Shown here: in pieces, positions 183 through 4,209 of the stretch | Layout of the letters: each line of letters opens with the position of its first letter | Position numbering within the stretch: position 1 is the first letter of the stretch | Assembly: GCA_024763035.1 (NCBI GenBank) | Contig: JANTGG010000002.1 | Location: 1 to 48,969 of the forward strand | Origin: Desulfocapsa sp. | GTDB lineage: Bacteria > Desulfobacterota > Desulfobulbia > Desulfobulbales > Desulfocapsaceae | Reading direction: 5' to 3' | Length of the DNA: 48,969 nucleotides | Notes under the pieces: generated by a model | What the model was told of the DNA's origin: nothing | Seen by the model: the letters and a program-made list of their open reading frames with translations, nothing else | Databases searched by the model: none | Made by a program: the position numbers and the translations under genes

Positions 183-788
183 TTAACGTAAAATAATCCC
201 CCGTTCACGCAGTTCCTCAATGATCGCATTCACGCATTCCCGCAAGGGACGATGGCCGGTGTCCAGTTCAATATCAGGATTTTCCGGAGCTTCATAGGGT
301 GAGGAGATTCCGGTGTAATTTTTGATCTCTCCGGCACGTGCTTTTTTATAGAGCCCTTTCACGTCACGTTCTTCACATATTGCAAGGGAACAGTTGCAGT
401 AGACTTCAATGAGATTGTCAGCACCAATGATCTCCTTTACCCGCTTCCGGTCGGCTGCAAGCGGTGAGATAAAGGCGGTGAGTGAGATAACCCCGCTGTC
501 AAGGAAGAGATTGACCATCTCGGCAATGCGCCGCATATTTTCACTTCGGTCCTCGAGACTGAAGCCCAGATCCCCGCACAGTCCGTGACGTACGTTGTCG
601 CCGTCAAAGACATAGGTTCTGCAGCCCATCAGGTGCAGCCGTTCCTCCACTGCGTGGGCAAGGGTGGACTTTCCGGAGCCGGAAAGCCCGGTGAACCAGA
701 GGTTTACGCTCATGTGGCCATTTAATGTTTCGCGCCGGGGGCGGCTGACTGCTGCACGGTGTCTGACTACGTCGGGTGATTTTGCCAT
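183..788 (-). CDS. cysC: adenylylsulfate (APS) kinase
   Basis: The 201-residue product phosphorylates adenosine 5'-phosphosulfate with ATP to give PAPS in the cytoplasm. The Walker A motif GLSGSGKST lies near residue 35, followed by the DGDNVR substrate motif and the FISPLAADR segment typical of CysC. Length and the pre-domain segment (RRETLNGH) match the family, which is why the ATG at 788 is preferred over further upstream codons in the same frame. No clear Shine-Dalgarno site precedes it. It faces away from the cysteine synthase fusion at 1739, so the neighbourhood is sulfur-related but not one operon. In a dissimilatory sulfate reducer PAPS would serve sulfation or assimilation rather than respiration; that is inference. 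Confidence 0.93.
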   Translation of the reverse strand: MAKSPDVVRHRAAVSRPRRETLNGHMSVNLWFTGLSGSGKSTLAHAVEERLHLMGCRTYVFDGDNVRHGLCGDLGFSLEDRSENMRRIAEMVNLFLDSGVISLTAFISPLAADRKRVKEIIGADNLIEVYCNCSLAICEERDVKGLYKKARAGEIKNYTGISSPYEAPENPDIELDTGHRPLRECVNAIIEELRERGIILR

Positions 789-928
789 TTTTTTTTGTGG
801 AAGGAGATTAAAATAGTATGTGTCTGTTGGATATGGGGTAGTATATGTGTACAGACTTAAAGAGTAAACAGCAATCTGCAATTTTTTTTTCGTGAATACC
901 GTCAAAGCAGAGTTGATGTCCGTTGCTT

Positions 929-1001
929 GTAGGAGCTTGCCCCTGCAAGCGATTTTCCAGGTTAGCAACTCCTTGAATCGTTCGCAGGGGCGAGTTCCTA
1001 C
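929..1001 (+). repeat. REP-like 73-bp palindromic element, copy 1
   Basis: The ends are inverted: it begins GTAGGAGCTTGCCCCTGCAAGCG and finishes with a GTTCGCAGGGGCGAGTTCCTAC type complement. Closely similar elements of 72-73 bp lie at 13628-13699 and 43065-43137, always between genes. The layout resembles bacterial REP/REPIN sequences mobilised by stand-alone Y1 transposases; no such transposase is in the window. Confidence 0.75.
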
Positions 1002-1626: not shown

Positions 1627-1699
1627 CATTTCTGCCCTTAAAGTGTACTGCTGTTATTTGAGATGGCGGGAATGGACGAAGATGAGGTGTTCTGAACAG
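1627..1699 (+). repeat. 73-bp repeat, right copy
   Basis: This is the second copy of the element at 21-93, ungapped and about 79 percent identical. It lies directly upstream of the cysteine synthase fusion gene, ending 39 bp before its start codon, so it could also carry part of that gene's promoter. In the shared peptide frame the copy has an in-frame TAA, so at least this copy is not part of a longer gene. Confidence 0.6.
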
Positions 1700-1738
1700 G
1701 AACCTCTGTTTTATAAAAGGAAACCGATAGAGACAGCA

Positions 1739-4090
1739 ATGCTTTTTGATACAGTACTGAATGCCATTGGCAACACGCCGCTTATACGGATTAATCGACT
1801 GAACACCAGTAAAGTTCCTGTGTATGGAAAGCTGGAGTCCAGAAATCCTGGCGGCTCTGTAAAAGAACGGATCTCCCTTTCCCTTATTGAGGCAGGTGAA
1901 GCAAGCGGTGAACTAACGACAGAGAAGATCGTGCTGGAGGCGACCAGTGGGAATACGGGTATCGGGCTTGCCATGGTCTGTGCCGCTAAAGGGTATCGCT
2001 GCCTGCTGGTAATGCCGGAGTCCGCATCCCTTGAACGAAGAAAAATCATGCAGGCGTATGGTGCCGAGATCCTGCTTACCCCTGCCAATCGCAGTACCGA
2101 CGGTGCCATAGAAAAAACCTATGCCATGGCCCGTGAATTCCCGGATCGCTATTACCTGACAGATCAGTTTAACAATGAGGCGAACTGGAAGGCCCATTAT
2201 CAGCAGACAGCTCCGGAAATATGGGAACAGAGTGAGGGGAAAGTTACCCACGTTGTTGCAACACTTGGAACATCCGGGACGGTGATGGGCTTGTGCAGGT
2301 GGTTCTCAGAGAATCATCCCGAGGTACATGTTATCGCCGTGGAGCCCTTTCTTGGTCACAAGATACAGGGGCTAAAAAACATGAAGGAATCCTATCGACC
2401 GGGGATATTTGACAAATCACTTCCTGAAAAAATTGTAACCATCAACGACGAGGACGCCTTCCGTATGGCACGATTGCTTGCCAGAAAGGAGGGGTTGCTG
2501 GTGGGGATGAGCAGCGGTGCTGCAATGTTTTCTGCTCTGCAGCTGGCTGCTGAGCTGGACGAAGGGCTTGTGGTTACTATTCTTCCGGACGGTGGTGAGA
2601 GATATCTTTCCACACCACTTTTTACCCGGAAAAACGAGGTAAAAGAAAAAAAATCCGCACTCTGTTTTTTCAACACCCTGACAAAGAAGAAAGAAGAGTT
2701 TCGTCCCGCCCGGGATAAAAAAGTCACTTTTTATACCTGCGGTCCAACGGCGTATGAGCCTGCCAATCTTTCCCTTTGCAGGCGTTTTGTTGTGTCCGAC
2801 CTTATTACCCGCTATCTGGAATATAAGGGTTATGAGGTAAATTCGTGCATGAATTTCACCGATCTTGATGATAATACCATCGAGGGTGCGGAGAAGGCGA
2901 ATATGTCCCTGCACGAATTTACCATCAAATATATCGATGGCTTTATGGAAGATATTGATGCTCTTGGCGTCAAGCGGGCAACCAATTATCCCAAGGCATC
3001 CGAGCACGTGGCGGATATGATAGAGATCAGTCACGAACTCCTGCATAAGGGGTATGCCTATGAAAAGCATGGTTCCATTTATTTTGATATATCAAAGTTT
3101 AAAAAGTACGGGCGATTGTCCGGCATTGACCTGCGCAAGATTCAGCTTGGGAAAACAGTTGATCTTGATAATTACGAGAAAGACAATCCCCGTGATTTTA
3201 CGTTGCTGAAGCGTTCTACGCTGGCAGAGCTGAAAAAGGGGATCTTCTACGAGACCGACTGGGGCAATGTGCGTCCGGGCTGGCATATCGAGTGCTCAGC
3301 CATGTCTACCAAGTATCTCGGTGAGACCATGGATATTCACACCTCCAGCCGTGATCTCATCTTCCCTCATCATGAAAACGAAATAGCCATTGCCGAGGCA
3401 CTCACCGGTAAACCCCTGGCAAGATACTGGCTGCATTCCGAATTGCTTCGTGTCGATGGAAAGAAGATGTCTGCTGAAGCCGGAAATGTGGTAACATTAA
3501 AGGATATCGTCCTGCGGGGATTTACACCGAGGGATATCCGCTTCATGCTGCTCTCTGTCCATTATCGTAAACCATTGAACTTTTCCTTCAAGCGTCTGAT
3601 AACTGTCCGTACGGCGTTGCGCCGTCTCGATGAATTTACCTGCAAACTGCTTTGCCTGCCTCCCGGCAAACCGCATCCGGAAGTGGCTGCCTTTGTTTCC
3701 ACCATGGAGGAACAGTTTTTTGCAGCACTCGATGATGACCTCAATGTTTCCAAAGGGATGGGGGCGGTGTATCGCTTTATTAAAAAGACCAATCCCATTC
3801 TCCATGTAAATCATCTCGATGGTGATCAGAAAAAATATATTCTGGACAGTTTGCGTAAGATCAATGAAATTCTGCAGATCTTCCGATTAAAAGGCTGTCC
3901 TCTTGCTCCTTCCGTGAATGCACTGATCCAAAAGAGAGAGGAGGCGCGGCAGGGAAAAGACTGGCAGGCGGCGGATGAAGCAAGGGATGAACTTATCCGG
4001 CGGGGGATTCAAATTATCGATACCGCCACGGGACCGGTATGGAAACCGGTGGGCGAAGGATGCTCCGGATCAAAATCTGACAAAAAATGA
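1739..4090 (+). CDS. cysK/cysS: cysteine synthase fused to a cysteinyl-tRNA synthetase-like protein
   Basis: The 783-residue protein has two full modules. Residues 1-300 are a PLP-dependent O-acetylserine sulfhydrylase type: PLP lysine K42 in PGGSVKER, TSGNTG at 69-74 and the phosphate loop GTSGT at 177-181. Residues 325-780 are a class I cysteinyl-tRNA synthetase fold: zinc ligands C334, C519, H544 and E548 are all kept, and the DALR/anticodon region and C-terminal helices are present. The ATP signatures are altered: the HIGH position reads NLSL (343-346) and KMSKS reads KMSAE (576-580). The ATG at 1739 is chosen because CysK homology begins there; upstream in-frame codons fall in a repeat. 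It may charge tRNA-Cys, or act as a paralogue in another cysteine-activating reaction; the sequence cannot decide. Confidence 0.88.
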   Translation: MLFDTVLNAIGNTPLIRINRLNTSKVPVYGKLESRNPGGSVKERISLSLIEAGEASGELTTEKIVLEATSGNTGIGLAMVCAAKGYRCLLVMPESASLERRKIMQAYGAEILLTPANRSTDGAIEKTYAMAREFPDRYYLTDQFNNEANWKAHYQQTAPEIWEQSEGKVTHVVATLGTSGTVMGLCRWFSENHPEVHVIAVEPFLGHKIQGLKNMKESYRPGIFDKSLPEKIVTINDEDAFRMARLLARKEGLLVGMSSGAAMFSALQLAAELDEGLVVTILPDGGERYLSTPLFTRKNEVKEKKSALCFFNTLTKKKEEFRPARDKKVTFYTCGPTAYEPANLSLCRRFVVSDLITRYLEYKGYEVNSCMNFTDLDDNTIEGAEKANMSLHEFTIKYIDGFMEDIDALGVKRATNYPKASEHVADMIEISHELLHKGYAYEKHGSIYFDISKFKKYGRLSGIDLRKIQLGKTVDLDNYEKDNPRDFTLLKRSTLAELKKGIFYETDWGNVRPGWHIECSAMSTKYLGETMDIHTSSRDLIFPHHENEIAIAEALTGKPLARYWLHSELLRVDGKKMSAEAGNVVTLKDIVLRGFTPRDIRFMLLSVHYRKPLNFSFKRLITVRTALRRLDEFTCKLLCLPPGKPHPEVAAFVSTMEEQFFAALDDDLNVSKGMGAVYRFIKKTNPILHVNHLDGDQKKYILDSLRKINEILQIFRLKGCPLAPSVNALIQKREEARQGKDWQAADEARDELIRRGIQIIDTATGPVWKPVGEGCSGSKSDKK

Positions 4091-4132: not shown

Positions 4133-4209
4133 GCGCCAATAGCTCAGCTGGATAGAGCAACGGCCTTCTAAGCCGTAGGTCGCAGGTTCGAATCCTGCTT
4201 GGCGTACCA
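4133..4209 (+). tRNA. tRNA-Arg (anticodon TCT)
   Basis: A full cloverleaf can be drawn. The acceptor stem GCGCCAA pairs with TTGGCGT (one G-T pair), the anticodon stem is ACGGC/GCCGT with loop CTTCTAA and anticodon TCT at 4167-4169, the T arm contains GGTTCGAATCC, and CCA is encoded at 4207-4209. It reads AGA codons. Confidence 0.97.

Follow-up and report, generated by a model that had tools for sequence, protein, structure and literature searches.

A cysteine synthase fused to a putative tRNA-Cys-binding pseudo-synthetase in Desulfocapsa and its phylum

A gene near the start of a Desulfocapsa sp. contig raises the question of what a protein does that joins a cysteine synthase to a module resembling cysteinyl-tRNA synthetase (CysRS). 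The gene occupies positions 1739..4090 of the window, i.e., the whole stretch of 48,969 nucleotides that was analyzed (contig JANTGG010000002.1 of assembly GCA_024763035.1); coordinates refer to the window and its forward strand unless stated otherwise. The open frame spans 1643-4090, the ATG at 1739 starts MLFDTVLNAIGNTPL, and 783 amino acids plus stop are encoded. Homologues were found. Pfam matched PALP (residues 7-284, 240.7 bits), tRNA-synt_1e (321-620, 314.4 bits), DALR_2 (659-715) and CysS_C (722-761), i.e., the CysRS-like module is complete. In the reading favored here, for which confidence and doubt are about balanced, an active cysteine synthase is fused to a catalytically dead, tRNA-Cys-binding pseudo-synthetase that most likely gates cysteine synthesis by tRNA-Cys.

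The initial annotation, made from the letters of the window alone, had described the gene as a fusion, and this was borne out by a single 783-codon open reading frame (ORF). A frameshift or assembly artefact was ruled out because frames crossing the junction recurred in 81/93 genomes of the window's family (counted as matches crossing the junction, some of them cut by contig ends). Ten of the 12 family genomes without the fusion are less than 90% complete; the other two (G046, G080) are not.

In the CysRS-like catalytic domain (residues 309-625, 2663..3613; delimited by Pfam, alignment and site rates), alignment placed NLSL at the HIGH motif, KMSAE (3464..3478) at KMSKS, HTSSRD (3338..3355) at HGGGxD and NTIE at KIIK. 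The initial annotation had correctly reported the NLSL and KMSAE replacements next to four retained Zn ligands; it had missed the changes at HGGGxD and KIIK, the very high conservation rank of the anticodon readers and the frequent status of the fusion as the sole cysteine synthase found. The family alignment that it had called for established that motif loss is general. Among 96 fusion loci (94 distinct; 87 after removal of near-duplicates), both HIGH histidines (H37 with H40; E. coli numbering) were found in 0/96, and so was the second KMSKS lysine (K269). These zero counts, and that for the persulfide lysines given below, were unchanged in the 87 loci free of near-duplicates. In 20 standalone CysRS used as reference, H37 was present in 20/20, H40 in 19/20 and K269 in 20/20. 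Site rates, determined for the 87 fusions and separately for the 20 standalone CysRS plus the E. coli enzyme, moved from percentile 21 in standalone CysRS to 61 in fusions for HIGH, and from 5 to 58 for KMSKS. In fusions, twelve ATP-site positions outpaced six anticodon positions (Mann-Whitney p 0.005), and no difference was seen in standalone CysRS (p 0.89); for both comparisons, the positions were picked after the counts were known. We strongly infer that the aminoacylation motifs were lost, and the window protein very likely does not charge tRNA.

The rest of the domain was not eroded to the same degree. Since Zn-ligand and cysteine-pocket positions evolve slowly and many catalytic-domain positions (H234 and R42 among them) are identical in 96/96, the loss falls mainly on HIGH and KMSKS, and part of the old cysteine pocket survives. 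At thirteen positions, at least 92/96 fusions were identical, while standalone CysRS were less uniform or had another residue; among the 13 are R349, adjacent to the former HIGH site, and an L-K-x-G insertion (498-501), with R349, R492 and K499 being fusion-specific. In NLSLCRR, which replaces HIGHxRx (2765..2785), R348 and R349 are present in 96/96. Because of these 13 near-invariant positions, a new function may reside in the former active site. All four Zn ligands were kept in the window: C334 (E. coli C28; 2738..2740; 79/96), C519 (C209; 3293..3295; 83/96) and, within HHENE (544-548; 3368..3382), H544 (H234; 96/96) and E548 (E238; 68/96). Across the 96 fusions, 65 kept all four, while 15 had lost one, five had lost two and 11 had lost three. 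Of the 31 fusions missing a ligand, 29 retained all five charged positions of the anticodon domain.

It is this C-terminal part that argues for a continued role of tRNA-Cys. The helical bundle and anticodon-binding region (residues 655-770, 3701..4048) was delimited by DALR_2, CysS_C and the structure model. Its R733, R737, W742, D746, R749 and D761 (3935..4021) correspond to E. coli R423, R427, W432, D436, R439 and D451, and the first four are equivalents of the readers of G34, the first base of the GCA anticodon. In the E. coli complex, R427 and D436 hydrogen-bond G34, W432 stacks and R423 takes part in a water network (PMC12684709; papers are cited here for the excerpts available), and tRNA-Cys of E. 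coli has main identity elements in its anticodon and U73 (PMC9976931). In fusions, R423, D436, R439 and D451 were each present in 96/96, R427 in 94/96 with K in the remaining two, and position 432 was aromatic in 96/96 (W in 74, F in 16, Y in 6). The G34 readers ranked at site-rate percentile 18 in standalone CysRS and 17 in fusions, and the anticodon domain as a whole evolved fast (percentile 54 in standalone CysRS vs 59 in fusions). The conservation strongly indicates that the anticodon readers were retained, and the synthetase half probably binds tRNA-Cys. Within the window's family (18 genomes, 153 pairs), catalytic-domain identity was 86.9% for the fusion vs 87.7% for true CysRS, and C-terminal identity was 84.8% vs 64.1%, higher for the fusion in 153/153 pairs. 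Across the phylum (136 pairs from 17 genomes), conservation of the catalytic domain was relaxed, with 45.0% for the fusion vs 64.3% for CysRS. By these comparisons, the pseudo-synthetase module is under selection.

The first half (residues 5-295, 1751..2623; Pfam, NCBIfam and alignment) is a cysteine synthase (PALP) domain with a CysM-like short loop. It shares 43% identity with E. coli CysM and scored 355.9 against TIGR01136 (cysteine synthase; cut-off 344.15). Its pyridoxal 5'-phosphate (PLP) site is complete, as the initial annotation had stated: the PLP lysine K42 (1862..1864), the SGNTG substrate loop S70-G74 (1946..1960), Q143, the PLP-phosphate loop GTSGT (177-181, 2267..2281) with G177, T178, G180 and T181, and S258 and D284 were each found in 96/96 fusions. 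There is strong reason to regard the PLP site as working, and CysK-type activity can be predicted with high confidence. In 26/53 fusion genomes the fusion was the sole CysK-type match (E 1e-40 or better), and other routes to cysteine may exist.

Which activated serine this half would use was approached through CysE. CysE-like matches of at least 145 bits were found in 26/27 fusion genomes that also carry a second CysK and in 0/26 in which the fusion was the sole CysK-type match (Fisher p 3e-14, shared ancestry ignored); the exception without a CysE-like match, G220, has a short-loop second CysK. Below 145 bits, a partial match of 116 bits was found in G144, and three others scored below 51 bits. 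Since all matches but one (G274) fell under the curated cut-off of the model (210.65 bits), they are CysE-like by score only. In the window genome, the second CysK adjoins a CysE-like gene on contig 11. The QGLKNM loop of the fusion (210-215, 2366..2383; K213 in 96/96) differs from IQGI-GAGF in the second CysK of CysE-bearing genomes. Because CysE-like matches track the second CysK and not sole-fusion genomes, the fusion seems to function independently of CysE. The pattern points away from O-acetylserine as donor; O-phosphoserine is a candidate. According to a published rule, O-phosphoserine users usually have Tyr at the position of F144 in the window (PMC12800425), which was equated to the residue of the rule by motif. 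Of the 96 fusions, 85 have F and 11 have Y there. In the sequences examined, the sole-fusion genomes had Phe in 24/24, and the five with Tyr were all among the 27 with a second CysK, which counts against O-phosphoserine. As residue 144 conflicts with what the CysE pattern suggests, O-phosphoserine is a candidate substrate only. Tyr is found at this position in the unfused synthases of three genomes that have neither a CysE-like match nor the fusion. G108, G146 and G182 (L220, L222 and L221), which lack both the fusion and a CysE-like match, each have just one cysteine synthase, unfused and of the short-loop type, with the motifs QYN and EGLKHM; it is possibly an O-phosphoserine-type enzyme. 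A further cysteine synthase match lies within an 877-codon open frame (G110:C38:95709-96596).

The fusion is not the only CysRS-like protein of its hosts. A second, canonical cysS with intact HIGH and KMSKSLGN was found in the window genome (3.3 Mb, 209 contigs, 92% complete) on contig 139 (L001, 970-2439, minus strand). In 60 genomes searched with a CysRS model, a standalone match was present in 52/52 other fusion genomes, reaching model position 463 or beyond (of 466) in 51/52; in G227 it is a 419-codon ORF reaching position 384 only. The fusion is thus a CysRS paralogue, as the initial annotation had envisaged if a second cysS were found, and a role as sole CysRS was ruled out by these canonical enzymes. 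Among fusion genomes, two standalone CysRS scored lower, those of G253 (431.8 bits; L183, G253:C1) and G197 (447.8 bits; L184, G197:C11); the former has HIGN and KMAKS and clusters with candidate-phyla CysRS in the tree. This suggests that the native gene was replaced. Two short CysRS ORFs (G461:C1:2100534-2101781 and G368:C34:19106-20356) match only to about position 405 of 466; in length they are like CysRS*, a form that lacks the anticodon domain (PMC9437257).

Across the phylum, the fusion was found in about 155/395 sampled genomes, i.e., 150 listed genomes plus five unlisted ones with best E-values of 8.1e-171 or lower, two of which (G369, G480) were confirmed as fusions and three are counted by E-value. 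The match in one further genome, G158, was ambiguous. Among the matches listed in a contig scan with patterns from the window protein, which comprised 80 loci, at least eight were full-length fusions, labeled Desulfocapsa, Desulfopila, Desulfobacula, Desulfobacteraceae, Desulfobacterales (two) and 'Deltaproteobacteria' (two). One of the latter two, L009, carries a Myxococcota label in the tree. In the tree, obtained by a quick method, one branch with support 100 separated the CysRS halves of 61 fusions from 41 standalone CysRS and the E. coli enzyme. Because of this split, the fusions look like a single lineage, with one origin as the simplest reading.

An AlphaFold2 model, computed from 30 sequences (nine fusions, 21 CysRS), had a mean predicted local distance difference test (pLDDT) score of 84. 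Confidence was low at residues 285-305 (pLDDT below 50), around the fast-evolving linker (296-307, 2624..2659). Foldseek placed the CysRS structure 8qhp first and the CysRS:tRNA-Cys complex 1u0b second, with cysteine synthases later; the MshC structures 8hfn and 3c8z were also among the matches.

How the halves could work together may be outlined as follows. The PLP half would make cysteine from activated serine and sulfide (or thiosulfate). The synthetase half would no longer use ATP productively or charge tRNA, and would dock tRNA-Cys through reading G34 of the GCA anticodon; in the window's lineage its Zn pocket may still sense cysteine at the tRNA end. Occupancy or charging state of tRNA-Cys would set the activity of the fused synthase, and cysteine production would therefore follow translational demand. 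Known systems offer parallels in part. GCN2 is a eukaryotic kinase with a dead HisRS-like domain that senses uncharged tRNA; there, too, a dead synthetase domain is joined to an enzyme, and tRNA sensing is what is proposed for the fusion, whose effector would be the biosynthetic enzyme itself and not a kinase. By analogy with GCN2, or with the action of HisZ on HisG, regulation of cysteine synthesis by tRNA-Cys has about an even chance of being right. HisZ, a HisRS-like regulatory subunit of HisG that mediates histidine feedback (PMC9437257), is also a catalytically dead synthetase paralogue controlling the synthesis of its own amino acid, control being a proposal for the fusion. HisZ is a separate protein, whereas the fusion is one polypeptide of class I with its anticodon readers kept. 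Compared with CysRS (TIGR00435; E. coli CysS, PDB 1u0b, 1li5), the fusion shares domain order, the Zn site in the window, the anticodon-binding domain and the top structural matches, but differs in the eroded HIGH, HGGGxD and KMSKS motifs, in R349, R492 and K499, in the fused synthase and in the presence of a true CysRS elsewhere in the genome. With CysK/CysM (TIGR01136; E. coli CysM) it shares the PLP site, the fold and the short loop, but it is fused, and the genomes in which it is the sole CysK-type protein lack a full CysE-like match. CysRS* of Desulfobacterales, which charges SelC* (PMC9437257), is also a non-canonical CysRS paralogue in related bacteria; the fusion, unlike CysRS* as described there, keeps the anticodon domain and loses the ATP motifs. 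Identity with CysRS* was ruled out by this domain and by the tRNAs found in the window, i.e., Arg, Lys and Phe. In SepRS-SepCysS, cysteine synthesis is RNA-dependent (PMC5424206, PMC8762117) and a PLP enzyme likewise works with tRNA-Cys, the tRNA-Cys role of the fusion being a proposal; in the fusion, the PLP domain is of the CysK kind and is joined to a dead class I synthetase module, and no aminoacylating partner was seen. A third form of RNA-coupled cysteine synthesis, proposed for genomes in which neither a full CysE-like nor another CysK-type gene was found, would have the PLP domain depend on tRNA-Cys docked to the dead synthetase, or even act on that tRNA, e.g., by converting a seryl-type group on tRNA-Cys to cysteine; we regard it as a long shot.

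Other explanations leave the second half catalytically active. That it is an unusual auxiliary CysRS fed nascent cysteine by the first half is improbable. The window protein scored 404.8 against TIGR00435 (cysteine--tRNA ligase; cut-off 340), the Zn ligands are complete in 65/96, and the changes are conservative in some members (e.g., L012, with HLGN and KMSRS), but the window reads NLSL, HTSS and KMSAE, neither H37 with H40 nor K269 survives in any locus, 31/96 lack at least one Zn ligand and a canonical CysRS is at hand. The suggestion of the initial annotation that nascent cysteine is channeled into charging by the same protein found no support, with HIGH and KMSKS eroded in 96/96 loci. Its other two suggestions, a MshC-type ligase and a persulfide synthase, fared no better. 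MshC is not known to have an anticodon domain, the fusion keeps one, and its score against TIGR03447 (MshC) was 202.4 bits vs a cut-off of 485.1; ligation would moreover need the eroded ATP site. MshC is a relative of CysRS (PMC9437257) and appeared among the matches to the model, and E. coli CysRS makes cysteine persulfide, for which K73, K76, K266 and K269 are required (PMC5660078). The window has N, E, K and A at these positions, and the four lysines occur together in 0/96 fusions. A ligase or cysteine persulfide synthase on the CysRS scaffold is therefore very improbable.

Two further alternatives share the dead active site with the favored reading. The module may not bind tRNA at all and serve as a structural or amino-acid-sensing domain, e.g., with free cysteine at the Zn site as feedback, which is doubtful though of some weight. 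The Zn ligands and cysteine pocket are kept in the window's lineage, their site rates in fusions are close to those of the G34 readers, and HisZ is a precedent for amino-acid sensing (PMC9437257). Against it, 31/96 fusions lack a Zn ligand, nearly all of them with the charged anticodon-domain positions intact, and the sensing of free cysteine would not call for an anticodon domain. In a tethering arrangement, the module would hold tRNA-Cys near the synthase and cysteine would pass to the canonical CysRS, without allostery; this is unlikely. It rests on the same conservation evidence as the favored reading, and consecutive pathway steps are commonly fused, but no sign of contact with the standalone CysRS was seen, though interaction was not looked for. 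Several observations also weigh against tRNA-Cys gating itself. In fusions, Zn-ligand positions averaged percentile 18 and cysteine-pocket positions 19 (both 7 in standalone CysRS), about as slow as the G34 readers at 17, and because of this the old cysteine site may be as important as the anticodon domain. The conserved anticodon-domain residues could be structural instead. At phylum scale, the C-terminal region was no better kept than in CysRS (36.3% vs 37.0%; core 43.3% vs 47.7%; 136 pairs), and in a few near-canonical fusions such as L012 the use of ATP is possible. With a predicted template modeling score of 0.61, the model does not fix how the two halves lie relative to each other. No conserved operon was found at the 95 loci compared, of which many had flanks of only about 1.5 kb, and no tRNA-Cys gene at the 47 fusion loci scanned.

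If the favored reading is right, amino-acid supply would be tied to translation inside one bacterial enzyme, and a tRNA-Cys-gated cysteine synthase would be spread across a sulfur-bacterial phylum. Annotation would then need correction as well, in that the protein passes the NCBIfam cut-off for cysteine--tRNA ligase and very likely charges nothing; this matters also since it is so often the sole CysK-type gene found. The fusion was not named in titles or abstract openings of the open-licence papers that targeted searches listed; subscription papers lie outside this coverage, so that absence from print is unproven.

The N-terminal extensions of fusions L128, L165 and L156 had no match in Pfam. 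A tRNA-Arg(TCT) gene (4133..4209) lies just downstream of the fusion in the window and also in Desulfopila L007, with no functional link shown. A DciA-like gene was found upstream in 20/95 loci (18 of the window's family, L007 and L108), and also in the window. In 15/95 loci, an unknown protein of about 334 amino acids is encoded within 300 bp of the fusion on the same strand, up- or downstream; its representative (L169:4001-5002, minus strand) had no Pfam match. In the window, the fusion is adjoined by an APS (adenosine 5'-phosphosulfate) kinase-like gene of sulfate-assimilation type (183-944, minus strand).

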